Virus record (IMG/VR): IMGVR_UViG_3300027896_005310
Span: 1-64,000 of that record
Reading direction: 5' to 3' (one strand)
Source: a virus
DNA length: 64,000 bases
Both the position numbers and the translations under genes were made by a program. The notes beneath the pieces were generated by a model that saw nothing but the letters and a program-made list of their open reading frames with translations, searched no databases and was not told where the DNA came from. This document shows positions 17,339 through 34,393 of the stretch, one piece after another. Position 1 is the first letter of the stretch. Each line of letters starts with the position of its first letter.

Positions 17339-19135
17339 TTATTTCCCCAAAAGTGTGATCTGTACTCTTCTATTTGAAGCTCTACCTTGAGAAGTATTAT
17401 TTGAAGCAACAGGATTTTCTGATCCCAATCCTTCTATTTTAAATCTATCATTTGGAAAGTTATCGGGAGCTTGTCTTTGTAAAAATGTCTTTATTGCAGT
17501 AGCTCTAGCTAAAGACAATGGAATATTTACCTTCTGCTCATTGCCAGTATTATCAGTATACCCCACCACCTTAATAAATAAATCTGTAATAGCAAAATTA
17601 TCCTTCAGATTCATCAACTGTTTCACACCCGATGAAGTAAGAGTAGCTTTTCCCGTCTCAAAATTAATGTTATAGTTTCTTTCTGAAATTACTGCTCCTT
17701 TAGCATTTTCTGCATATTGTGGAGCTTCTGCAGCTGATCCAGCATCATTCATTACTGCTTGCGCACCTGTAATATAAGATTTGTCCTCTATCTCTTTTAC
17801 GTCTGGAATTGGAGTATCTTTGAAAAGAGAGGGATATTGTTGGATAGCAATATTAGCAAAAAGAGTGTAAGTAGATCTAAAATTATCATTTGATCCGGGC
17901 ATCAAACCAAATAAAATAAGATTATCAGCAAGATTATTTGCAAAAGATCCCCCTAAAGACACTTTATTTCCTTGCTTATCTGTCTCTACTACTCCCTTAT
18001 AATATTTATACCAATAAGCTCCGTCTTGATCTTTATAAAGTTTGGCGGAAATATCTCCTGCTTTTTTAAGAGATTGATCAAATGCTTTCACTTGGTCTCC
18101 ACCCTCAAAAATTGCTGCTAACATTTGAGTAACCTCTGCTTTATTAGCTTCAAAAAAAGCTCTAGATCCAACAATAACTGCGGGCATCTGTGACTTATAC
18201 TCTTTAGATGATACTATTTTTACTAATCCACCTTTCTGTTGTACTACTACTACATCTCCCGGAGTCCAAGTTACTGTAGCGTTTACACACACTTTTTTAG
18301 TATCTCCAGTAAGATGCCCATCTTTAATTACTTTTCTTTCTTCACATTTTCCTGCTACATAATCAGTAGCTGCTACATTGTAATCTGAAGAATTAATCCA
18401 ATTTATAGCATCGGGGTCATAAGTCTTCTCATCTGGATTATTGGAAATTGCATTATCCGCTGCCCATTTCATAGCAATATTCCAATCCCCATCTCTTAAT
18501 ACCCCTGAAACTAATAAACCCTTTGCTTTAGAAGGATCAGTTTTAACTTCAGGAGGAGCCATAAAAGCATCTTCTCCTCTACTATATCCAACAGCTCCAA
18601 TTACTATAAGTTTATATTGATCCCCTAATTTTTGTAATTGGGGATTTACAGCAGCAGCAAATTGTCCACTTCCATCTCCCATAATCACTACAAAATTAGC
18701 TCCATTAGAGCATTGCTTAGCTCCATCTTTAATCTCTTTAGCACAAGCAATTAAATCTTCTTGCATCTTATTAGTGTCGTCTTGACGATAAAGAAAAAGA
18801 TTTACATTTCTTTTTTCCATCAAAGAATTTTTAGTAGTAGCTGCTCCTCCATTAGCAAAAATCATACCCATTTGAGCATTCCATTCCCAAATAGCTCCTC
18901 TAATAAGAGTAGTTGAAACTTCTGCTTCTTTAGTAGTGGGTCCTGCTACTGGAGCTACATTTTGTACTAAAGCATCTTTTACATCAGGCAAATTAGCTTT
19001 TTCAGGAATAAGTGCTTTCATTATTCCGACTGAGGGAATAAACCCAGTTCTTAATCCAATCTTATAAATCCCAAATAATCCTACTATAATTACAAAAACA
19101 ATGCATAACTTTGCAAACGTAGTTAATTTCTTCAT
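17339..19135 (-). CDS. ABC substrate-binding protein fused to C-terminal OmpA peptidoglycan-binding domain
   Basis: A 598-residue protein. Residues 8-26 are an N-terminal membrane anchor or uncleaved signal (KLCIVFVIIVGLFGIYKIGL). Residues ~75-450 form a periplasmic substrate-binding domain of the NMT1/SsuA-like type (FVVIMGDGSGQFAAAVNPQL, WAADNAISNNPDEKTYD, YYKGVVETDKQG). From about 480 an OmpA-like domain follows: NYNINFETGKATLTSSG, VVGYTDNTG, NIPLSLARA, IEGLGSENPVASNNTSQGRA. The OmpA part binds peptidoglycan and would tether the receptor in the periplasm. It completes a phage-encoded transporter with 13358 and 14823. Confidence 0.85.
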   Translation of the reverse strand: MKKLTTFAKLCIVFVIIVGLFGIYKIGLRTGFIPSVGIMKALIPEKANLPDVKDALVQNVAPVAGPTTKEAEVSTTLIRGAIWEWNAQMGMIFANGGAATTKNSLMEKRNVNLFLYRQDDTNKMQEDLIACAKEIKDGAKQCSNGANFVVIMGDGSGQFAAAVNPQLQKLGDQYKLIVIGAVGYSRGEDAFMAPPEVKTDPSKAKGLLVSGVLRDGDWNIAMKWAADNAISNNPDEKTYDPDAINWINSSDYNVAATDYVAGKCEERKVIKDGHLTGDTKKVCVNATVTWTPGDVVVVQQKGGLVKIVSSKEYKSQMPAVIVGSRAFFEANKAEVTQMLAAIFEGGDQVKAFDQSLKKAGDISAKLYKDQDGAYWYKYYKGVVETDKQGNKVSLGGSFANNLADNLILFGLMPGSNDNFRSTYTLFANIAIQQYPSLFKDTPIPDVKEIEDKSYITGAQAVMNDAGSAAEAPQYAENAKGAVISERNYNINFETGKATLTSSGVKQLMNLKDNFAITDLFIKVVGYTDNTGNEQKVNIPLSLARATAIKTFLQRQAPDNFPNDRFKIEGLGSENPVASNNTSQGRASNRRVQITLLGK

Positions 19136-19437: not shown

Positions 19438-21396
19438 TTACAAATCGTAATAATTCTTAGCTAAAAAATTAGATAATGCATCAGAATAATTATATTCTAA
19501 AGAATTTTTTAAATCTATTAATTTCAGATTAGGTAAAAAATCTGTTGCTATATTGAAAATATCCTCAGATAAGAGTTTCTTTTTATCTAACAACTCTTTA
19601 GTGAGAATTTTAAACAATTTGTAATTTTCATTAAGAATAGAAAATGCTTTCTTTTTTTGTTCTTTTAATATTTGCTCAATAATGGGGTCTGTATCTTCTA
19701 AATTGGTTAGGGTAGTCGTTAAAGGTTCTGTCTCTGGACCTATTCTTCCAATATACTCATCCATATTATGTGCTCTTACCATATTAGAAGCTAAAGAAGT
19801 AGCTACAGTAATATCAGAACTAGATCCCGTTCCCGCATTACTTTCTCCAAAAACATATTCCTCCGCTACTTTACCTCCCAAACAAACTTGAATAAGCTTT
19901 AAAATATATTCTTTTGTGTCTCTTATCTCATGAGGCACTACAAATCCTTCAGCAAAATTAACTGCATCACAACAAACTTGTCCAGGTACTGTGTTAAATA
20001 AATGCATATAAATTACAACATGCCCTATCTCATGAGCTGAAACTAAAGATAATACATTTTTATTTATTTTATTTTTTAATATCCCTATGTCTAATTGCAC
20101 CTTTTTATAATATTTAAAGTCCCCATATTCACAAAGCAAACTACTACTCTCTTTGTGAAATGAAATATTTAGCTGAGTAACATTATCTTTAAATGCTTTT
20201 AACAAAAATTCTGGTAATGAATTTTCAATCAAATGTGTAATAGTACTAAATACAGGACGTACTCCTTGATTCGGAAATACTCCATTTTGATAAATAGTCT
20301 CATGTATATTGCTTGAAAAATTAACTTTTATATTAGATACTTTATAGAATTTGTTGACTACTTCAGCTAAGCATTTTTTTATTAAATCTTTAAAATTATT
20401 TTTATTCAAAGAAGTATAAATAATATGATTATTACCCATTCTAGCAATTTGTTCAGGTTTAAATTTTTGAAGCAAAGATTTTTTAATGTCGATTATAGAT
20501 ATTTTTTTGGTTCTTTCATATAAAATATCCGCATCAGTATCTACTTCTGATACATCAGAGGACATATTATAGGCTTTATCTAAATTACCGCAAATAAAAA
20601 TAAGCAAATTATTGTATTTTTTACAGCAACTATCTTTTTCTAAACTATCTAATTTTTCATATATAGCATCTATTTGTTCATCTAAAGAAAGTTGCATTAT
20701 CTGTTCAATAGGTAAAGCACTTTCAGTAATCATCTTAAATTTATTAGCTGCCCAAACATAATTTTTAAATTTTTTATTAGCTTTTTTAGTAGGTTTAAGT
20801 GAAGGTGTGTTTTTTATCTTTTGCATAACAACATCACCAATTTCATCTACTTCTTTATCCTCATCTTCATCTTCATCATTTTGATCTTTTTCATATAATA
20901 ATCCATATAAAAAATTCTGTAATTCATATTTTTCTTGAAAAGCATCAGAAAAACTACCATCAGATAAAAGTTCCCAAATATCAGTATAACTATTATTTCG
21001 AATCATTTCCCCTTTTTCCGTCAAACTACTAAATCTTTGTATTTCATCTAAAAGAAGAATAGCTTGTTTATTAGATGTAATATTTAATCCCGAAAGTTTT
21101 GACTGAATAGTCTCTCCCCTATCTTCTTTCGAAATTAATTGTATTTCAAGATAATTTTCTTTAAGAGATAACTTACTTACGAGTTTTCTTACTAGATCAG
21201 TTTTTCCTACTCCAGTCATTCCCCATAAATTTATAATTAAAGGATGTGTAAGTAATTCCGGAAAAGTATACCATACCTCAATTGAAGTAATTATTCTGTC
21301 TATAATTAAATCTAATCCAACAAAATCTTTCTTTAAACTTTCTCCTACTTCTATTAACTTTTGTCTTTTACTTTCTATCGCATTGACATCAATCAC
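19438..21396 (-). CDS. soluble AAA+ ATPase fused to FtsH-type M41 metallopeptidase
   Basis: A 652-residue protein. The N-terminal AAA+ module has Walker A GMTGVGKTD (59-67) and Walker B AILLLDEIQRF (112-122), closer in type to ClpA/ClpX-like modules than to FtsH. A low-complexity acidic insert lies at 170-190. The C-terminal peptidase has zinc motif HEIGH (455-459) and the FtsH-like segment LGGKVAEEYVFG...SSSDITVATSLASNMV, with Asp528 as probable third ligand. No membrane helix is present, unlike cellular FtsH. It would unfold and degrade selected host or phage proteins. It is coupled to the HAD-like gene (ATGA). Confidence 0.85.
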   Translation of the reverse strand: MIDVNAIESKRQKLIEVGESLKKDFVGLDLIIDRIITSIEVWYTFPELLTHPLIINLWGMTGVGKTDLVRKLVSKLSLKENYLEIQLISKEDRGETIQSKLSGLNITSNKQAILLLDEIQRFSSLTEKGEMIRNNSYTDIWELLSDGSFSDAFQEKYELQNFLYGLLYEKDQNDEDEDEDKEVDEIGDVVMQKIKNTPSLKPTKKANKKFKNYVWAANKFKMITESALPIEQIMQLSLDEQIDAIYEKLDSLEKDSCCKKYNNLLIFICGNLDKAYNMSSDVSEVDTDADILYERTKKISIIDIKKSLLQKFKPEQIARMGNNHIIYTSLNKNNFKDLIKKCLAEVVNKFYKVSNIKVNFSSNIHETIYQNGVFPNQGVRPVFSTITHLIENSLPEFLLKAFKDNVTQLNISFHKESSSLLCEYGDFKYYKKVQLDIGILKNKINKNVLSLVSAHEIGHVVIYMHLFNTVPGQVCCDAVNFAEGFVVPHEIRDTKEYILKLIQVCLGGKVAEEYVFGESNAGTGSSSDITVATSLASNMVRAHNMDEYIGRIGPETEPLTTTLTNLEDTDPIIEQILKEQKKKAFSILNENYKLFKILTKELLDKKKLLSEDIFNIATDFLPNLKLIDLKNSLEYNYSDALSNFLAKNYYDL

Positions 21397-21866
21397 CCCT
21401 TCCCCCTAAATAAACAAAAATGTGTTTTAAAATATTTTTGGTATCTTTCCGTATCATCTATATGCAGTAGAATGCTCTCTCGAGCACAATAATCCCCTTT
21501 AGTACGATCCCAAATCTCTTTGTCCATCCAAGGGTTGCCATTCTCGTCATAATTGATTTGCGTGCCATTTGTGACGTGATAATCCGCTATAGAAAATAAA
21601 TGTGTAAATCTAATATTCCAAAGAGAAAGCTCTTTTAGAGCCTTCTCTTTGGGGGGACCTGTCAAAATATGTACTTCCCACCCCATAAAAATTAAATCTT
21701 GTGTAAGAATAGAGAAAAATTGAGGGTCTGCATCAATCACATGGTGTATGTCTATGCCTATTTTTTTAACAAAATGAAAAGTCTTTCTACAATCTTTTGT
21801 CTCATAGATATATCCACAACCGTTCTCTATAGTGCATGTCTTACATAATTCTTTTTTAGGAATCAT
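21393..21866 (-). CDS. HAD-superfamily-like protein
   Basis: A 157-residue protein with HAD-like signatures: GIDIHHVIDADPQFF (motif I position), VHILTGPPKEKALKEL (motif II Thr), and LLHIDDTERYQKYF (motif IV acidic pair). It resembles small phage 5'-nucleotidase/phosphatase-like HADs, but motif I has DIHHV rather than DxDxT, so catalysis is doubtful. An N-terminal Cys cluster (CKTCTIENGCGY) could bind metal. It overlaps both neighbours by 4 bases. Confidence 0.6.
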   Translation of the reverse strand: MIPKKELCKTCTIENGCGYIYETKDCRKTFHFVKKIGIDIHHVIDADPQFFSILTQDLIFMGWEVHILTGPPKEKALKELSLWNIRFTHLFSIADYHVTNGTQINYDENGNPWMDKEIWDRTKGDYCARESILLHIDDTERYQKYFKTHFCLFRGKG

Positions 21867-22363
21867 TTCTTATCAAATTTCTCCATATCTTTTTGATCCA
21901 TTGCATCTTCAACTTCTTTACAGGCTCCACAATTAAAACAGTCATTTAAATCTTCATCGGATAACTCTTCTTCATCGTCTAATAAATCTTCTCCATCTTT
22001 TTCTATTATATCATCTTCCATTCCATCGTCATCATCTTCTTCAAATTCTTCAGTTTCATCATCATCTTCTTCAAATTCTTCAGTTTCATCATCAAATTCA
22101 TCTTTATCTAAAATTCCTTGCTCACAACTCTTCTTTAGACACTCAGCATCACCACTTATAGCTATATAATGTGTATCAGCTTGATCAATTGTTAATTCTT
22201 TTCTATTAAAATTTTTCACTAACTCATCTATTATGTCTGCTCCTGCTCTTAAAGACTTTGCCCAAGCTTTTAGTGCTTTTTTAGAATCTCCATCATTTAT
22301 TTCTAAAAAATGATGCAAATCATCTCCCTGTTTATAGTGTATATTTAAAGTGTATATATCCAT
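21863..22363 (-). CDS. acidic protein with tandem Asp/Glu repeat
   Basis: A 166-residue protein. The first 85 residues appear folded (MDIYTLNIHYKQGDDLHHFL). The second half is strongly acidic, with DDETEEFEED repeated in tandem, encoded by a ~30-base DNA duplication around 22026-22090. It ends with a CFNCGAC motif. The acidic stretch may mimic nucleic acid or bind basic proteins; function unknown. AAAGGAG precedes the start. Confidence 0.6.
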   Translation of the reverse strand: MDIYTLNIHYKQGDDLHHFLEINDGDSKKALKAWAKSLRAGADIIDELVKNFNRKELTIDQADTHYIAISGDAECLKKSCEQGILDKDEFDDETEEFEEDDDETEEFEEDDDDGMEDDIIEKDGEDLLDDEEELSDEDLNDCFNCGACKEVEDAMDQKDMEKFDKK

Positions 22364-22729: not shown

Positions 22730-22903
22730 TCATTTATAATTTTTAGTTTCTTTTTCTCTTCTTTCAATCTCATTTTTAAATTTTGTTAATAATTTCTGAA
22801 GATGCTCAGATTCTTCTTTGAATTCATTCTCTACAGAAGTTATCACTTTGACTAATAGTGGTAAATCTTTGTCAGCTAAAAACACTTTTGATCTCTTTTT
22901 CAT
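22730..22903 (-). CDS. small charged helical protein
   Basis: A 57-residue frame starting MKKRSKVFLADKDLPLLVKV and continuing as an amphipathic, Lys/Glu-rich helix (EFKEESEHLQKLLTKFKNEI). AAAAGGA lies 7 bases before the ATG, supporting translation. Function unknown. Confidence 0.55.
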   Translation of the reverse strand: MKKRSKVFLADKDLPLLVKVITSVENEFKEESEHLQKLLTKFKNEIERREKETKNYK

Positions 22904-22982: not shown

Positions 22983-25130
22983 TTATTTTTTAATATAGAG
23001 CATAGTAGTATAATTTTTCAATTGATTTAAATATTTTTGTTCTGTTTTATTTTTACCTAAAACCATAACATATTTTCCCTTTAGTGGGATTTTAATTTTA
23101 GCTGATTCGTTTAATATTTTTTTTTGCCAAATCTTCCATTTTAATATAATTTCAGAAGGTATTTTACTTAAATTTTTAAAACCATTTTCTTTAAACCAAA
23201 CATCTTCAGTTTTAATATTATTTTCTTTTAACCATTTTTTTAAACCAGATGTTCTGCTTAAATATTGTCTAGAAAAAAAATCGCCCTCTTTAAAATAAGG
23301 ATGTTGATAAATAGTGTCAGCTCCAAAATTGTTACCTAAATAATCAAAATTACATGCTTGATATATAATTCCTAATTCAGAAGCTTTTGGATCAGCATAG
23401 CCTATAAAAAGTCTTTTATCTGTGTTTTTTACCATCCAATTTAAAGAAAACATAATAAAAGAACTACCTAAATTTTTAGGTGCCCAGGAAGCTGAACATC
23501 CTCTTTGTATTAAAGCTTCATATTTTTTTGTATCCTCTCCTAATAAAGTAGAATAAGCATTAGGTTCATTAATTAATACTACTCCCACAAGCATCTGTTG
23601 ATATCTAGCTGTAAAAGTCCATTTTACAGAATTTCCAACTTTTTGTAACCATTCATATTTTTCTACAAATGATCTAATTCCATCATTAAAATCTTCTATA
23701 TTATATACTATATCTGTAATTTTAATTTTTTTATAATCAAAAGATAAATCTCGAATATCATTTTTAAAATCTTTATCTTTTATTATTTTTTGATGTGCTA
23801 AATCTATTAATTTGTAATCAAATAAAGGAAGAATATATTTGGATATTAAACTTTGAAATTTTAAAGCATTTTCATATAAAAAAGTAATTCGATTTTCTCT
23901 ATTAAGTTCAAAATCAATATCCCATTTTGTTTTAAAAACTTCTTTAACTTTTTCCAAGTCTTCCTTTAAAAAAGATTCAGTACAAATAGTTAGTGTGTGC
24001 TGATCATCTTTATAACCATCATCCATATACCAAATAGCTAAACCTCTAGCATCTAATTCTTTAACTACATTAGGATTTAAATATTTTTCATAATTAGTTT
24101 TATAAAATAAAGGATAAATGTCCGTAAAAATTTTATTTTGTATCGTTTTAAATACAACTGCTTTATAAATTTGATTATTTCTTTTATCTAAACGATCTAC
24201 TATTTTAATTCCTGAATTTTGAGTATAATTTTTTAATAATTGATATTTATATTCTACATATTCTTTTTGTTTAAATCCATGTGCAATTTTTAATTGTGAA
24301 TTAGAATGACTATGTCCTAAATAACTATCTCCCAAAATAGTACCATAAATCAATTGCTTTTGAGTTTCAGAAATATAATTTAAAGGCATATCATTTTTAT
24401 CTAATAAAATTTCTGAATACAAAGAATATCTAATTAAAGTTTTTTTAATAGCATCTGCGCTTACTCTAAATAAGATTGCTATTTCTTCGATTGATTTTTT
24501 TTGATTTATATATAAATCTTCAATTTTAATTTTTTTTATATGCGCTCCATCTTCTCGTCTTAAAAATATATTAAATTTTCTTAAAGATTTATAAATAGCT
24601 GATATACCTTTATTTAAAAATTTTGTTATTTCTAAAAGAGATAACTTTTTATTAACATATAAATCATATAATTCTACTTCTGTTATTTCAGAAAAATTTC
24701 TTTTTTGTTTTTCAATATTGTGAGCTGTTTTACTTTGATTTAATCCAGAAGTAGACATTCCTATAATTTTAGAAATTTCAATATCTTTCAAACCTTGATT
24801 TTTTAAAATTTGATATTCTTCAGGATTAAATTTAACTTTTCTAAAAGAAATATTAAATTGAGCTAATCTATTAGCTAAAGCAGATCTTGATATGTTTAAT
24901 TCTTCAGCAGCTTCATCTATAGTTTTACCACTATTTGCATATTTTTGTAAAATTTCAGGAGTTATTTTTTCTAACTCTTCAAGAGTAATTCTATCCGTTT
25001 TAGCAAAAGATATGTCCAATTTTCTACAATATCTTTGTAAAGTAGATTTAGAAATAGCTAATTTTTTTGCTGCTTCTATTAAGGAATATTCATTTTTTAA
25101 TTCAAGTATAATTTGTTTAGTGATTTCCAT
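22983..25130 (-). CDS. LAGLIDADG homing endonuclease fused to Mom-like GNAT DNA-modification domain
   Basis: A 715-residue protein. Residues 1-240 are a string of small helix-turn-helix units (EAAKKLAISKSTLQRYCRKL; IDEAAEELNISRSALANRL; and more). Two LAGLIDADG helices follow (YGTILGDSYLG at 262-272; LAIWYMDDGYK at 364-374). From ~475 comes a GNAT-like domain (FVEKYEWLQKVGNSVKWTFT, GCSASWAPKNLGSSF, YADPKASELGIIYQACNFDYLG) of the type related to the Mu Mom acyltransferase that modifies adenine in phage DNA. No intein splice motifs are visible, so it is probably a true fusion. It abuts the similar fusion at 25134. Confidence 0.8.
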   Translation of the reverse strand: MEITKQIILELKNEYSLIEAAKKLAISKSTLQRYCRKLDISFAKTDRITLEELEKITPEILQKYANSGKTIDEAAEELNISRSALANRLAQFNISFRKVKFNPEEYQILKNQGLKDIEISKIIGMSTSGLNQSKTAHNIEKQKRNFSEITEVELYDLYVNKKLSLLEITKFLNKGISAIYKSLRKFNIFLRREDGAHIKKIKIEDLYINQKKSIEEIAILFRVSADAIKKTLIRYSLYSEILLDKNDMPLNYISETQKQLIYGTILGDSYLGHSHSNSQLKIAHGFKQKEYVEYKYQLLKNYTQNSGIKIVDRLDKRNNQIYKAVVFKTIQNKIFTDIYPLFYKTNYEKYLNPNVVKELDARGLAIWYMDDGYKDDQHTLTICTESFLKEDLEKVKEVFKTKWDIDFELNRENRITFLYENALKFQSLISKYILPLFDYKLIDLAHQKIIKDKDFKNDIRDLSFDYKKIKITDIVYNIEDFNDGIRSFVEKYEWLQKVGNSVKWTFTARYQQMLVGVVLINEPNAYSTLLGEDTKKYEALIQRGCSASWAPKNLGSSFIMFSLNWMVKNTDKRLFIGYADPKASELGIIYQACNFDYLGNNFGADTIYQHPYFKEGDFFSRQYLSRTSGLKKWLKENNIKTEDVWFKENGFKNLSKIPSEIILKWKIWQKKILNESAKIKIPLKGKYVMVLGKNKTEQKYLNQLKNYTTMLYIKK

Positions 25131-27798: not shown

Positions 27799-28579
27799 TT
27801 ATCTAGCAATAATCATACGACTTAATGCTCCTGGGTTATGACATCCCAAGCCAAGATTTTCAAAAATACTGAATCCAATAGTTCTAGCTTTGGGATCATC
27901 TGCACTTAAAACGGTAAGTTCCGTTCTCACAGGTATCCTGCCTAGAAATTCGGCCTCAGCACAAATGTAAGCATATCCTACTGGAACTTTTCTAGAAACG
28001 ATAATTTGAGCACCCCAAAGATAAGCCATAAGACCTGTTTTTAATAAAGATGCTTGAGTTTCAATATCTAATATGTCGCGTCCCCATTTTCTAATATCCG
28101 TATAATCTTTAGGATTCATGAAAATTCTAGCTACTCTTAAATCATGTCTTTCAACATCAGCAAAAGAATCAGCAAAGAAAGAAGCAGTAATAGGAGCTGC
28201 TACGTTAATATCAGGATTTGTTAATCCGTCATCAGCAGCTGCGCCAGCTACAGCATCAAAAATAGCAAAAATTCTACCATCTTCTTCGGCTTGAATTTCA
28301 GCTTTCGCTAGATCTTGCGCTCTTTCAATTAAGTCAAAGCGTCTTTCTTTTACTTGTGTCAATGGAATAGTAGGGTTTGAACTTAATTCAAACAATGGGA
28401 AAATTACTCTTCTTGGTTTTTGAATTGCAAGAATGTTTTCACCCTCTTCTCCGATTACATAAGCAACAGCTCTTGGATCTTTATCATAAATTGGTAAAGC
28501 TCCATCAGGCAATTGTTCAACTAAAAAGGCCCTACGTCCAATTGACGTATAGTCTCGTCTGAAGCGCAATGGTTGAATC
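27799..28579 (-). CDS. major capsid protein, 3' exon
   Basis: The second exon supplies residues 34-293 of the capsid protein. Characteristic segments are RFRRDYTSIGRRAFLVEQLP, RVIFPLFEL, VERHDLRVARIFMNPKDYTD and LLKTGLMAYLWGAQIIVSRKV, typical of HK97-fold capsids in this jumbo-phage type. Splicing 29707-29807 to 28579-27799 gives exactly 882 bases (294 codons) and joins the peptide KLAASM to IQPLRFRRDY without a gap. Without splicing a TAG stops the first exon after 35 codons. Confidence 0.85.
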
Positions 28580-29706
28580 CATTTTGTTACTTAAACCTCT
28601 GTTAGAGGCGAATGAGCTTTTCAACTCATTTCTCATAGTTACCTATGAGTTCAGACTGTATCACCATTTCTGTTATTAAAACAGAAAGCCCGGCATGTCT
28701 TGAGAAATTACTTTCTCAAAATGGGAGTTATCATCATGCTCTATATAAATAGAGTTTAGATTTTCCCCAGTCGTTGAACCTTCAATGCTATTTCTAGCAA
28801 AGCTTGGCTGCTGATTGTCCTTACAAAATCTTTTTGGAATTTTATGATATAAATCTTCAGTAATTTCAGATTGAATATATTCCCAAGCTATATTATGACT
28901 TTCCTTTAAAACATGAATGTTTCCTTCACCTTCAGAATTCCAAGTAATAGAAACTTTAAGATTTAAAACATCTGCTAAAACATTAATCGCTTCTTTTGTT
29001 TTAAAAAAAGGATCAAAAGTGCAAATATCAAAACCATAACCAGTAGTACTTCCATCATCAAGGAACCAAAAAGCAAATCCTGAAGGAGTTAATTTTTGTA
29101 ACCATTGTGTAGAAATTATTTTTATACCTTCTGGATAAAGTTCTTTACGAAATTCTGTAAATTGAGGTAAAGCAAAACTTCTAGCGTCAACATAAGGAAA
29201 TAATTCTCCCCCTTCTTCAAAAGCTCTTTCACCATAAAATACTTTTGCAGTAAAGGGTTTCATAATTTCAGCTTGTTTTAACAAATACTTTTCTTGTTTG
29301 GTAGTATGTTGGCATAACCAATATCCTGTTCCTGATTTTTGAACAGCAATACAAGAATCACCTAATAAAGAACCATATAAAAATTGTTTTTGTCGATCTG
29401 AAAGAGGTACAAATCTTAAAGGGTTTCTTCGTAATCTATAATTAGGATCTGTTTTAATCCCATATATTTTACGTAATTTTCTAACCCAACTTCGAGAAAT
29501 ACCATGCTCATTAGAAATTTCGGTATCACTAAATCCAATATACTCATATTGTTCACGAAGAAAATCTTCAGACAATATAGAAGATAAAGAATTTAATTTT
29601 TTTTGACTTATTATGATACCATTTATATTCATTAATTTTTTCCAAAAATCTTATAAATTGGAGTTTCCAGCAATTTACCGAGTTTAACGTCCACTGATTC
29701 TAGTTA
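28580..29706 (-). other. group I intron in the major capsid gene
   Basis: All core elements are readable on the - strand. P1 CGTCCAT/GTGGACG has a U.G pair at the 5' splice site (29707-29713 with 29688-29694). P is AATTGCTGGAAA (29660-29676), Q CAATCAGCAGCCAAG (28802-28817), R GGTTCAACGACTGG (28767-28780), and S GATACAGTCTGAACTC (28647-28662). P7 pairs GACTG with CAGTC. The intron ends in G (28580). Q and R lie inside the 3' end of the endonuclease reading frame. Spliced exons restore the capsid frame. Length 1127 nt. Confidence 0.9.
28676..29632 (-). CDS. intron-encoded LAGLIDADG homing endonuclease
   Basis: A 318-residue protein with a helix-turn-helix N-terminus (FSDTEISNEHGISRSWVRKL) and two LAGLIDADG helices (LYGSLLGDSC at 85-94; FAFWFLDDGS at 187-196). 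It would cut intronless capsid genes and promote intron homing. Its last ~50 codons double as the intron's Q, R and P8 elements (DNQQPSFARNSIEGSTTG encodes Q and R), so RNA structure constrains the protein end. The ATG follows the P segment closely. Confidence 0.9.
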   Translation of the reverse strand: MNINGIIISQKKLNSLSSILSEDFLREQYEYIGFSDTEISNEHGISRSWVRKLRKIYGIKTDPNYRLRRNPLRFVPLSDRQKQFLYGSLLGDSCIAVQKSGTGYWLCQHTTKQEKYLLKQAEIMKPFTAKVFYGERAFEEGGELFPYVDARSFALPQFTEFRKELYPEGIKIISTQWLQKLTPSGFAFWFLDDGSTTGYGFDICTFDPFFKTKEAINVLADVLNLKVSITWNSEGEGNIHVLKESHNIAWEYIQSEITEDLYHKIPKRFCKDNQQPSFARNSIEGSTTGENLNSIYIEHDDNSHFEKVISQDMPGFLF

Positions 29707-32657: not shown

Positions 32658-32864
32658 TTACTTTTTCATTCTTTTAAGATGTTGTCTTCTTTTTAAAATT
32701 AATCTATTTTTCTGTCGCCATTTTCTATTGTACATTTTAATTTTAAATTTATTCTTTTTGTAGCGTAATTTATTTTTCATTTTTGTACGAAAATCAACTA
32801 GCTTTTTTCTCTTAAATAATCTTGGTTTGTAACTAATTATCTCCATTCCAATTATACCAACCAT
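32658..32864 (-). CDS. small very basic protein
   Basis: A 68-residue protein with about half its residues Lys or Arg (SYKPRLFKRKKLVDFRTKMK, KWRQKNRLILKRRQHLKRMK). Its start overlaps the protease-like gene's end. AATGG-type ribosome-binding signal is weak; an internal Met (MEIISYK) could be the true start. The charge suggests DNA contact, possibly inside the head. Confidence 0.45.
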   Translation of the reverse strand: MVGIIGMEIISYKPRLFKRKKLVDFRTKMKNKLRYKKNKFKIKMYNRKWRQKNRLILKRRQHLKRMKK

Positions 32865-34393
32865 TTTTTAGCTAATTTGTTGATTTCTACTTTTTCTAAT
32901 ATCTTCAATTCTCTATTTAATTTAGATTCAATAGCTTTTGTATATCTTCTAAAAGAAGGAAAATCCTTAATATTTAAAGCATTTATCACTTTAAATACAT
33001 CCATATTAATAGAGTATTCTTTAGATATATAAGCAATTTTTAATATATCTGATGAAGAATATCCATTTTTCAATAAAGAACTAACTCCTTCTTTTCTTAT
33101 TAATTCTTTTGCTTTCTTTACTTTTTTTACTAAGTTAGATTGTATTATACTGTCATTTAAATTAACATCTTCTAAAGTATTTTTAAAATCTTCAGGTTTT
33201 AATCCCATTTCTTCAACTAATTCTTTTTTGATTTGATTCATCAAATTTTCCTTAAGTTGTTTTTTTAAAACATCGTAAGGAACTTTTTCTACTTTCTCTA
33301 ATTTATCATCTCCTACATCTTCTTCCATAGGAGCAGGAAGAGCATCTGATTCGGGAGGTTCTCCCAATTCTTTTAATTCTTCTGGAACGGGTTCTGAAGT
33401 TTCCTCTGGAGTTTCCTCTGGAGGAGTTTCCTCTGGAGGAGTTTCCTCTGGGGGAGTTTCCTCATTTTTAGCAAAAACTTTTTTCACTTTGTCTATTAAA
33501 AGACATGCAGAAATTACTCTTTGGGCAATATCTTTTAATTCCATAGATTGAATATTCATTATTGGTTCATATTTTTCAATAAAAGATTGTTTATCTATAG
33601 ATTCTATCTCTAATTCATTTCTTAAAACAGCTCCCTTAAAAGCAGGGGTTTCCACCCAAGATCCTTCAATAAATTTATTAGAATCTGGGTACAAATAATG
33701 CCCACATAATTCAGCTACACTTCTTTTCTTCCCGTCATTTTCACTTATAAAAGAATTTCTTTTAAGATATTGAATGTGGTCGCATAATTCAGTACTATCT
33801 GTTGCTACTCTTCCACATTCTGTACAAATAGTGAAACCCACTACTGCACCCATGCTTAAAGTAGTTAGTTTACCCGAAGTAATCTTTCTTACTAGATCAT
33901 CATGCTTTTTATTAGTAGCTACTAAAATATCTACGAATAAAGATTTGCCACCATCTACTTCTCTTAAAGCTGCATCTAATATTTTACCTTTAGATAATTT
34001 TGGATCTTGAACATGTTCTACATAATTTTCTGACCCAATAAAAGTTTTATAACTTTGCTTTAATAATTGTTTCGACCACGCATCTCCATTAGAATTAATA
34101 TATTTAGTAGTTTCAGGAGTAATATAATAATCTTTACATCCTTCTAATTTTTCAAATTCTTTTCTCGTTTTTTCGGATGTAAAATGTACAGGTTTAGGAG
34201 CATCTTCTACTTCTACTGAAGCTATAATAGTACAATGTGTAAGTAAATAATCATTGGGATTAAAATCAGAAATAATTTTTTTAAAATCTACAATTTTATC
34301 TGATGCTGTTTTAATTGTTCCTTTATTTAACCAAGAATCAATTTTTATTTCCGATTTTTCTATTTTTAGAGATGCTTGTTTTAAAAATGCCAT
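32852..34393 (-). CDS. probable prohead maturation protease with acidic tail
   Basis: A 513-residue protein. The central domain (NYVEHVQDPKLSKGKILDAA, FVDILVATNKKHDDLVRKI, GKLTTLSMGAVVGFTICTEC) resembles S80/U9-type phage prohead proteases: a His (VEHV) upstream and a Ser in LSMGA are candidate catalytic residues. Cys and His residues after it (CTEC, LCDH) suggest a metal site. An EETPP repeat then leads to a helical C-terminal domain. It would process scaffold and capsid precursors. The assignment is by pattern and position only. Confidence 0.5.
   Translation of the reverse strand: MAFLKQASLKIEKSEIKIDSWLNKGTIKTASDKIVDFKKIISDFNPNDYLLTHCTIIASVEVEDAPKPVHFTSEKTRKEFEKLEGCKDYYITPETTKYINSNGDAWSKQLLKQSYKTFIGSENYVEHVQDPKLSKGKILDAALREVDGGKSLFVDILVATNKKHDDLVRKITSGKLTTLSMGAVVGFTICTECGRVATDSTELCDHIQYLKRNSFISENDGKKRSVAELCGHYLYPDSNKFIEGSWVETPAFKGAVLRNELEIESIDKQSFIEKYEPIMNIQSMELKDIAQRVISACLLIDKVKKVFAKNEETPPEETPPEETPPEETPEETSEPVPEELKELGEPPESDALPAPMEEDVGDDKLEKVEKVPYDVLKKQLKENLMNQIKKELVEEMGLKPEDFKNTLEDVNLNDSIIQSNLVKKVKKAKELIRKEGVSSLLKNGYSSSDILKIAYISKEYSINMDVFKVINALNIKDFPSFRRYTKAIESKLNRELKILEKVEINKLAKKWLV

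Follow-up and report, generated by a model that had tools for sequence, protein, structure and literature searches.

A probable soluble AAA+ protease joining a Clp/Hsp100-type ATPase to an FtsH-type M41 peptidase in a phage window, with relatives in viruses and bacteria

What kind of protease is encoded by a viral gene whose peptidase motif resembles that of FtsH, while the rest of its product does not? The gene lies at 19438..21396 (-) in the window, the stretch of 64,000 nucleotides analysed here, which forms positions 1 to 64,000 of IMG/VR virus record IMGVR_UViG_3300027896_005310 (70,304 bases). The contig has matches to a major head protein, head maturation protease, portal, large terminase, clamp loader and sliding clamp; host contamination as the origin of the window was considered and is ruled out by the head, portal, terminase, sliding clamp and clamp loader matches. 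A scan of the window found no Rfam families and no tRNAs. The gene starts with GTG and encodes 652 amino acids in two domains, an ATPase (residues 1-435) followed by an M41 peptidase (residues 436-652), with the catalytic residues intact. Profiles for both M41 and ClpB_D2-small exceed their Pfam cut-offs in this single chain, together with weaker AAA matches around the Walker A motif, and the NCBIfam models for FtsH (residues 445-613) and ClpB (residues 293-415) both match far below their cut-offs. None of the PDB profile matches was to a solved structure spanning both halves, with FtsH covering the peptidase and Clp covering the ATPase. The original prediction had read the product as a soluble, phage-specific machine in which an FtsH-like peptidase is paired with a Clp/Hsp100-like ATPase in a layout other than that of FtsH, and we examined its two halves separately, cutting a 31-member family alignment at residue 435 and comparing each part by hhalign with E. 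coli domains, each template being a single E. coli sequence.

The peptidase half (19441..20091, -) is of the FtsH type, as had been predicted from its HEIGH motif. Pfam Peptidase_M41 (PF01434) matches residues 450-614 (E 1.3e-17; 64.8 bits versus a cut-off of 29.9) and was found in all 31 family representatives. In the hhalign comparison, its score is 143.5 with the FtsH M41 domain (99.5%, 169 columns) and 127.1 with a phage FtsH, versus at most 18.1 with all remaining templates. When residues 430-652 were modelled alone (pLDDT 88), the best 22 rows of the structure comparison were all FtsH/M41 or FtsHi, with Z of 15.1-21.3, after which Z dropped to 9.9. The zinc-binding motif HEIGH occupies residues 455-459 (20020..20034, -), and Asp 528 (19813..19815, -), which aligns with the third zinc ligand of FtsH, presumably plays the same part here.

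The ATPase half (20092..21396, -) has a different affinity. By hhalign it scores 90.7 against ClpB D2 (97.6%, 281 columns), followed by ClpA D2 (72.9), Lon (62.3), HslU (51.8) and ClpX (51.2), versus 46.6 over only 62 columns against the FtsH AAA domain and 54.7 over 71 columns against a whole phage FtsH. Structurally, the AlphaFold2 model of the window protease (pLDDT 84.7, pTM 0.77) gave the same order in a VIA comparison: the best 43 rows were all Clp/Hsp100 proteins, with Z of 20-22.8 to Skd3, ClpA, ClpB and ClpC (Skd3: Z 22.8, rmsd 3.1 Å, 295 aligned residues), and the first FtsH model stood at row 44 (Z 20.5, rmsd 7.2 Å). In a plain Foldseek search with the model, Clp did not lead by itself: FtsH and Clp chains were mixed among the top matches, which is what a protein composed of a part of each should give. 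The half contains a Walker A motif, GMTGVGKT (residues 59-66; 21199..21222, -), a Walker B motif, ILLLDE (residues 113-118; 21043..21060, -), and Asn 271 (20584..20586, -), which we take to be sensor 1. Arg 319 (20440..20442, -) lies in FKPEQIAR, which aligns with FRPEFINR of ClpB D2, and is likely the arginine finger, a role that we assume from the known families. A ClpB_D2-small lid (PF10431, E 8e-8) spans residues 330-400 (20197..20409, -) and includes the sensor-2 motif GVRPV (20251-20265, -); Pfam detected this lid in 20 of the 31 representatives. By profile and predicted fold, then, the motor belongs with the D2 modules of ClpB and ClpA and not with FtsH, as the original prediction had proposed.

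The protein also differs from FtsH in its relation to the membrane. Hydropathy over 19 residues peaks at only 1.29, on the HEIGH helix, and the window protease is predicted to have no membrane helix. The frame is closed by a stop three codons ahead of the GTG (open frame of 655 amino acids), so no N-terminal membrane segment has been missed in that frame. Both the predicted solubility and the predicted departure from the FtsH layout are thus upheld, the latter by the missing membrane segment together with the Clp-type ATPase profile and fold, and a classic FtsH with an overlooked membrane segment, named beforehand as the case that would overturn the prediction, is ruled out by profile, fold and in-frame stop. 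More broadly phrased, an ordinary FtsH that has lost or hidden its membrane part, of the kind known from PA5oct-like phages, would account for the clearly FtsH-like peptidase half and has precedents in the genuine FtsH with membrane helices of Pseudomonas phage 30-3 and in the FtsH of phage MIJ3, reported in PMC6892783. We nonetheless regard it as highly improbable: the ATPase is of the Clp D2 and not the FtsH type, the stop precedes the start codon, the 100 members caught by profile A2 score at least 407 bits against at most 102 for FtsH-type proteins, and five of six bacterial genomes encode, at a looser limit, not only the hybrid but another M41 protein whose score falls within that of the FtsH-type proteins. 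A membrane-like segment is present in 72 of the 78 lower-scoring, FtsH-type proteins.

Is this a single unusual gene, or a family? A first scan of viral contigs with the single sequence returned no relatives; an IMG/VR scan led by the conserved M41 columns gave 4 among the best 80 loci, and the next scan gave 35, all full-length and on other contigs of up to 379 kb. A collection of bacterial genomes yielded 210 relatives, the best 80 being kept, and the bacterial loci number more than 100 in total, with Acidovorax, Variovorax, Chryseobacterium and Comamonas among the named carriers. In an alignment of 137 members (116 loci plus 21 further Bacteroidota loci), ten catalytic positions, K65, D117, E118, N271, R319, R380, H455, E456, H459 and D528, are invariant (137 of 137); T66 is kept in 126 and replaced by S in 10 and by K in 1, and G524 is kept in 135 and replaced by S in 2. 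The window protein is similar to the family over its full length and has all ten of these residues. A 19-residue hydropathy of at least 1.8 is reached in only two of the 137, L196 (1.82) and L108 (2.74, with a start that looks over-long). Of 23 tested viral records, some of them near-copies (L109/L111, L113/L117), 12 have a hallmark gene: in 9 it encodes a large terminase, and in 3 a major head protein belonging to the same family as that of the window. By these measures the hybrid is a real family, and its two-domain architecture is not a product of chance, since both halves are common to full-length relatives on independent contigs.

The annotated phage and plasmid collections contained no full-length relative. 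Partial matches occurred in 14 phage and 88 plasmid records, covering at most 26% of the query among the matches listed; those in records H2, H5, H6, H7 and H18 were considered as relatives and on inspection proved to be FtsH, and three other family members used as probes returned nothing or only FtsH-type partial matches. Records H2, H5 and H6 (unannotated "phage" entries of INPHARED) carry a bacterial-type ftsH beside ordinary chromosomal genes and are probably host contamination. In an Acidovorax-family genome (G936:C22:21507-23364), the hybrid gene is present as two adjacent pieces, perhaps frameshifted or decaying.

Among known proteases, the hybrid shares with FtsH and the m-AAA and i-AAA proteases the M41 domain, with HEXXH and a third Asp, and the placing of ATPase before peptidase in one chain; it differs from them in having no membrane anchor and an ATPase of the Clp D2 type with a ClpB_D2-small lid. 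With the D2 modules of ClpB, ClpA, ClpC and Skd3 (mitochondrial CLPB) it shares the fold, the D2-small lid and the motifs GxTGxGKT, LLxDG, FxPE...R and GxRP, and differs in its single ATPase module, its approximately 100 extra residues before sensor 1 and its own peptidase. Lon, whose ATPase scores next after the Clp D2 domains, is likewise a soluble single chain with ATPase followed by peptidase, but its peptidase is a serine enzyme rather than a zinc M41. To our knowledge, the M41 peptidase of FtsH is known only with its own membrane-bound motor. The FtsH of the PA5oct-like jumbo phages (MIJ3 gp107 and that of Pseudomonas phage 30-3) is a phage-encoded M41 protein like the hybrid, whereas the phage 30-3 protein (PA5oct genus) has hydrophobic N-terminal segments and an FtsH-type ATPase. 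FtsH itself is defined, in PMC9020784, by one or two N-terminal membrane helices, an AAA module and M41; because the helices are absent and the AAA module is of another type, we do not file the hybrid as FtsH, which it resembles only in uniting both activities in a single chain. The conflict systems described in PMC7159879, which have FtsH-type ATPases, are different from the hybrid. We found no description of a Clp-type ATPase fused to an M41 peptidase in the open-access literature, and our best reading is that the hybrid is a previously undescribed domain combination within the AAA+ proteases.

The motor has two peculiarities of its own. Between the LLSDG motif and sensor 1, where Clp D2 modules have a short hairpin, the window protein has an insert of approximately 100 residues (residues 148-263; 20608..20955, -) composed of helices and an acidic, low-confidence stretch. 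The spacing from G147 to N271 is 124 residues in the window protein, with a median of 102 across the 137 members, versus 22 in E. coli ClpB; it ranges from 27 to 147, the value of 27 coming from an ORF (L251) shortened inside the insert. Sitting at the position of the Clp pre-sensor hairpin, the insert could alter the pore. The position of pore loop 1, as placed by alignment only, is residues 87-96 (LISKEDRGET; 21109..21138, -), where the window protein and seven others have no aromatic residue and 129 of 137 members do; the segment from E84 to D117 has a median length of 36 residues, about 10 short of the distance that separates the end of that strand from Walker B in ClpB. The missing aromatic is evidence against canonical gripping in the window member, in which substrate pulling may be weak or achieved in another way.

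In its genomic context, the protease gene belongs to a head-to-tail overlapping run on the minus strand, preceded by a gene for a 157-amino-acid protein (phrog_13623; 21393..21866, -) that reads like a small HAD-type protein, and before it by a gene for a 166-amino-acid acidic protein with a CxxC pair (21863..22363, -). The junctions, ATGA and GTGA, overlap by four bases each, and the three genes are for this reason probably translated together; the two small proteins are possible operon partners of the protease. Adaptors had been suggested among the small neighbouring genes at 21863 and 22730, a suggestion that gains nothing from the comparison: the ten genes nearest the window protease, up to five positions away, were compared with the genes at 115 other loci, and not one of them clusters with any of those. 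The gene 22730-22903 lies outside the overlapping run. The search beside the relatives likewise gave no conserved adaptor, and no conserved partner gene points to the role of the enzyme.

A specialised reading of this arrangement is that the enzyme unfolds and cleaves one or a few specific proteins in a processing step, for example in head maturation or host takeover. It draws on the strand and contig part that the gene shares with the major head protein (27799-28569), portal and terminase, on the two small genes in its overlapping run and on the missing pore aromatic; the contig has a separate head maturation protease match at 32852-34393, however, and relatives occur in many other contexts, including bacterial chromosomes among ordinary genes, such that we consider this reading distinctly unlikely.

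Several further genes around the protease deserve description. Directly downstream, 17339-19135 (-) encodes a protein of 598 amino acids that has a membrane helix at its N terminus and an OmpA domain at its C terminus, with a long uncharacterised region between them. The single ORF at 22983-25130 (-) combines HTH repeats, a LAGLIDADG domain (residues 259-419) and a Mom-like DNA-modification part (residues 485-705), which suggests a homing endonuclease that either sits within a mom gene or is joined to one by read-through. At 27799-28569 (-), the match to the major head protein begins at profile position 72 of 318, with a second LAGLIDADG ORF (28676-29632, -) immediately upstream; an intron or a mobile endonuclease may interrupt the head gene, though no Rfam match in the window marks an intron there. 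At two viral loci (L007:12015-15030 and L008:5355-8005), the genes after that of the protease encode a NUDIX-domain protein and one resembling nicotinamide phosphoribosyltransferase (Pfam NAMPT_N and NAPRTase in L007), perhaps an NAD-salvage pair, and a gene of the latter kind also lies near the protease at L103:6909-8435.

The claim that the enzyme is specific to phages did not survive the wider search, as the same architecture occurs in bacterial chromosomes (210 relatives, with the best 80 kept). Among sampled genomes, in counts that each include the centre genome and hence are not unbiased rates, the hybrid was present in 2 of 398 in the phylum of the Acidovorax genome and 16 of 150 in its family, in 5 of 395 in the phylum of Chryseobacterium, in 7 of 296 in one Bacteroidota order, and in 1 of 4 and 16 of 196 in two families; it is a rare, patchy bacterial gene. 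With neighbourhood genes called by custom scripts rather than an annotation pipeline, and named from our reading of their sequences, an HrpA-like helicase gene was found within three genes on the opposite strand at 40 of 80 cellular loci; at 34 of 80, an ArgA-like gene lies equally close but on the strand of the protease gene. These loci are mostly from Comamonadaceae, in many of which the site is conserved; at the remaining cellular loci the hybrid sits among ordinary, varying chromosomal genes, and viral neighbour genes are common to close viral groups only.

In a quick tree of 52 members (no bootstraps, midpoint root, 14 of 49 inner branches open; L238, L243 and L250 left out), the separation of viruses and cells takes four changes. 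Two cellular clades, each with a support of 100, are placed among viral branches, one from Comamonadaceae/beta-proteobacteria and the other a mixture of Bacteroidota, Thiotrichales, Methylophaga, Actinomycetes and Planctomycetota, and the window protease groups with viral contigs L098 and L087-L089 at a support of only 79. Transfer from phages to bacteria is suggested by these placements, with the midpoint root leaving the direction unset.

One bacterial branch has a distinctive neighbour. In three divergent Bacteroidota members that came up in a random draw, a WYL-type regulator adjoined the protease or was one gene off (Pfam WYL confirmed for L206 and L236), and a profile built from three of the loci and then used for counting placed such a regulator within three genes at 12 of 21 divergent Bacteroidota loci, 18 having been added to the first three, or 10 of 19 after merging two pairs more than 95% identical. 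The WYL-linked loci are L206, L207, L208, L234-L238, L240, L242, L243 and L251; a match at L245, 5.5 kb away in an odd 578-amino-acid ORF, was left out of the count. The regulator gene is mostly divergent in orientation, at 130-470 b from the protease, and the profile matched 0 of 2152 proteins at 116 other loci. The tree group that holds these loci also contains two viral rows. Genes for GmrSD, PD-(D/E)XK and AbiEii lie nearby in single loci of this subclade, and WYL regulators are reported, in PMC9122601, to co-localise with phage defence systems. Given this linkage, these neighbours and that reported co-localisation, a defence role for the WYL subclade is a fair hypothesis, one that does not extend to the window's branch. 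The idea that the protease itself belongs to a known defence family was rejected, PADLOC giving only weak P-loop matches.

It is tempting to see the whole family as a weapon of phage-host conflict, in which the phage copies would eliminate defence or stress proteins of the host and the WYL-linked bacterial branch would defend. The WYL contrast between the 12 of 21 loci and the other 116, the single-locus defence genes and the NAD-salvage-like genes adjoining the phage copies at L007 and L008 speak for it; the stable chromosomal site of the Comamonadaceae copies near HrpA-like and ArgA-like genes, as for a housekeeping gene, the position of the window's branch outside the WYL link and the weak PADLOC matches speak against it, and we think it unlikely, if less so than the processing role. 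In a wider scenario, an undescribed class of soluble AAA+ protease would have been traded between giant phages and bacteria: the phages would clear away host proteins with it, defences among them, both the Comamonadaceae and the mixed Bacteroidota/Thiotrichales group would have acquired it from phages, and a Bacteroidota branch would keep it under WYL control for antiviral defence. This scenario is slightly more plausible to us and still speculative as a whole.

Functionally, we consider it likely that the window gene encodes a soluble, self-contained ATP-dependent zinc protease. What was observed is two domains, a predicted fold, complete catalytic residues, no membrane anchor and family-wide conservation; the structure models are of single chains and describe the fold, not a ring. 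By analogy with the known families, the Clp/Hsp100 D2-type module would probably form a hexameric ring that unfolds substrate proteins and draws them in, passing them to a peptidase ring made by the C-terminal halves of the same chains, so that the enzyme would work much as FtsH does, but unanchored in the cytosol and driven by a Clp-type motor. In the phage, our guess is that it would remove host or phage proteins during infection. The conserved pairing of M41 with a Clp-type motor shows that motor and blade are interchangeable, and the family provides a natural soluble M41 protease for biochemistry. Because Acidovorax, Variovorax, Chryseobacterium and Comamonas carry the hybrid, the question of its substrates can be tested in named bacteria without the uncultured phage. 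The hybrid is thus a little-known type of enzyme rather than a phage speciality, with relatives in other giant phages and a sparse presence in bacterial chromosomes.
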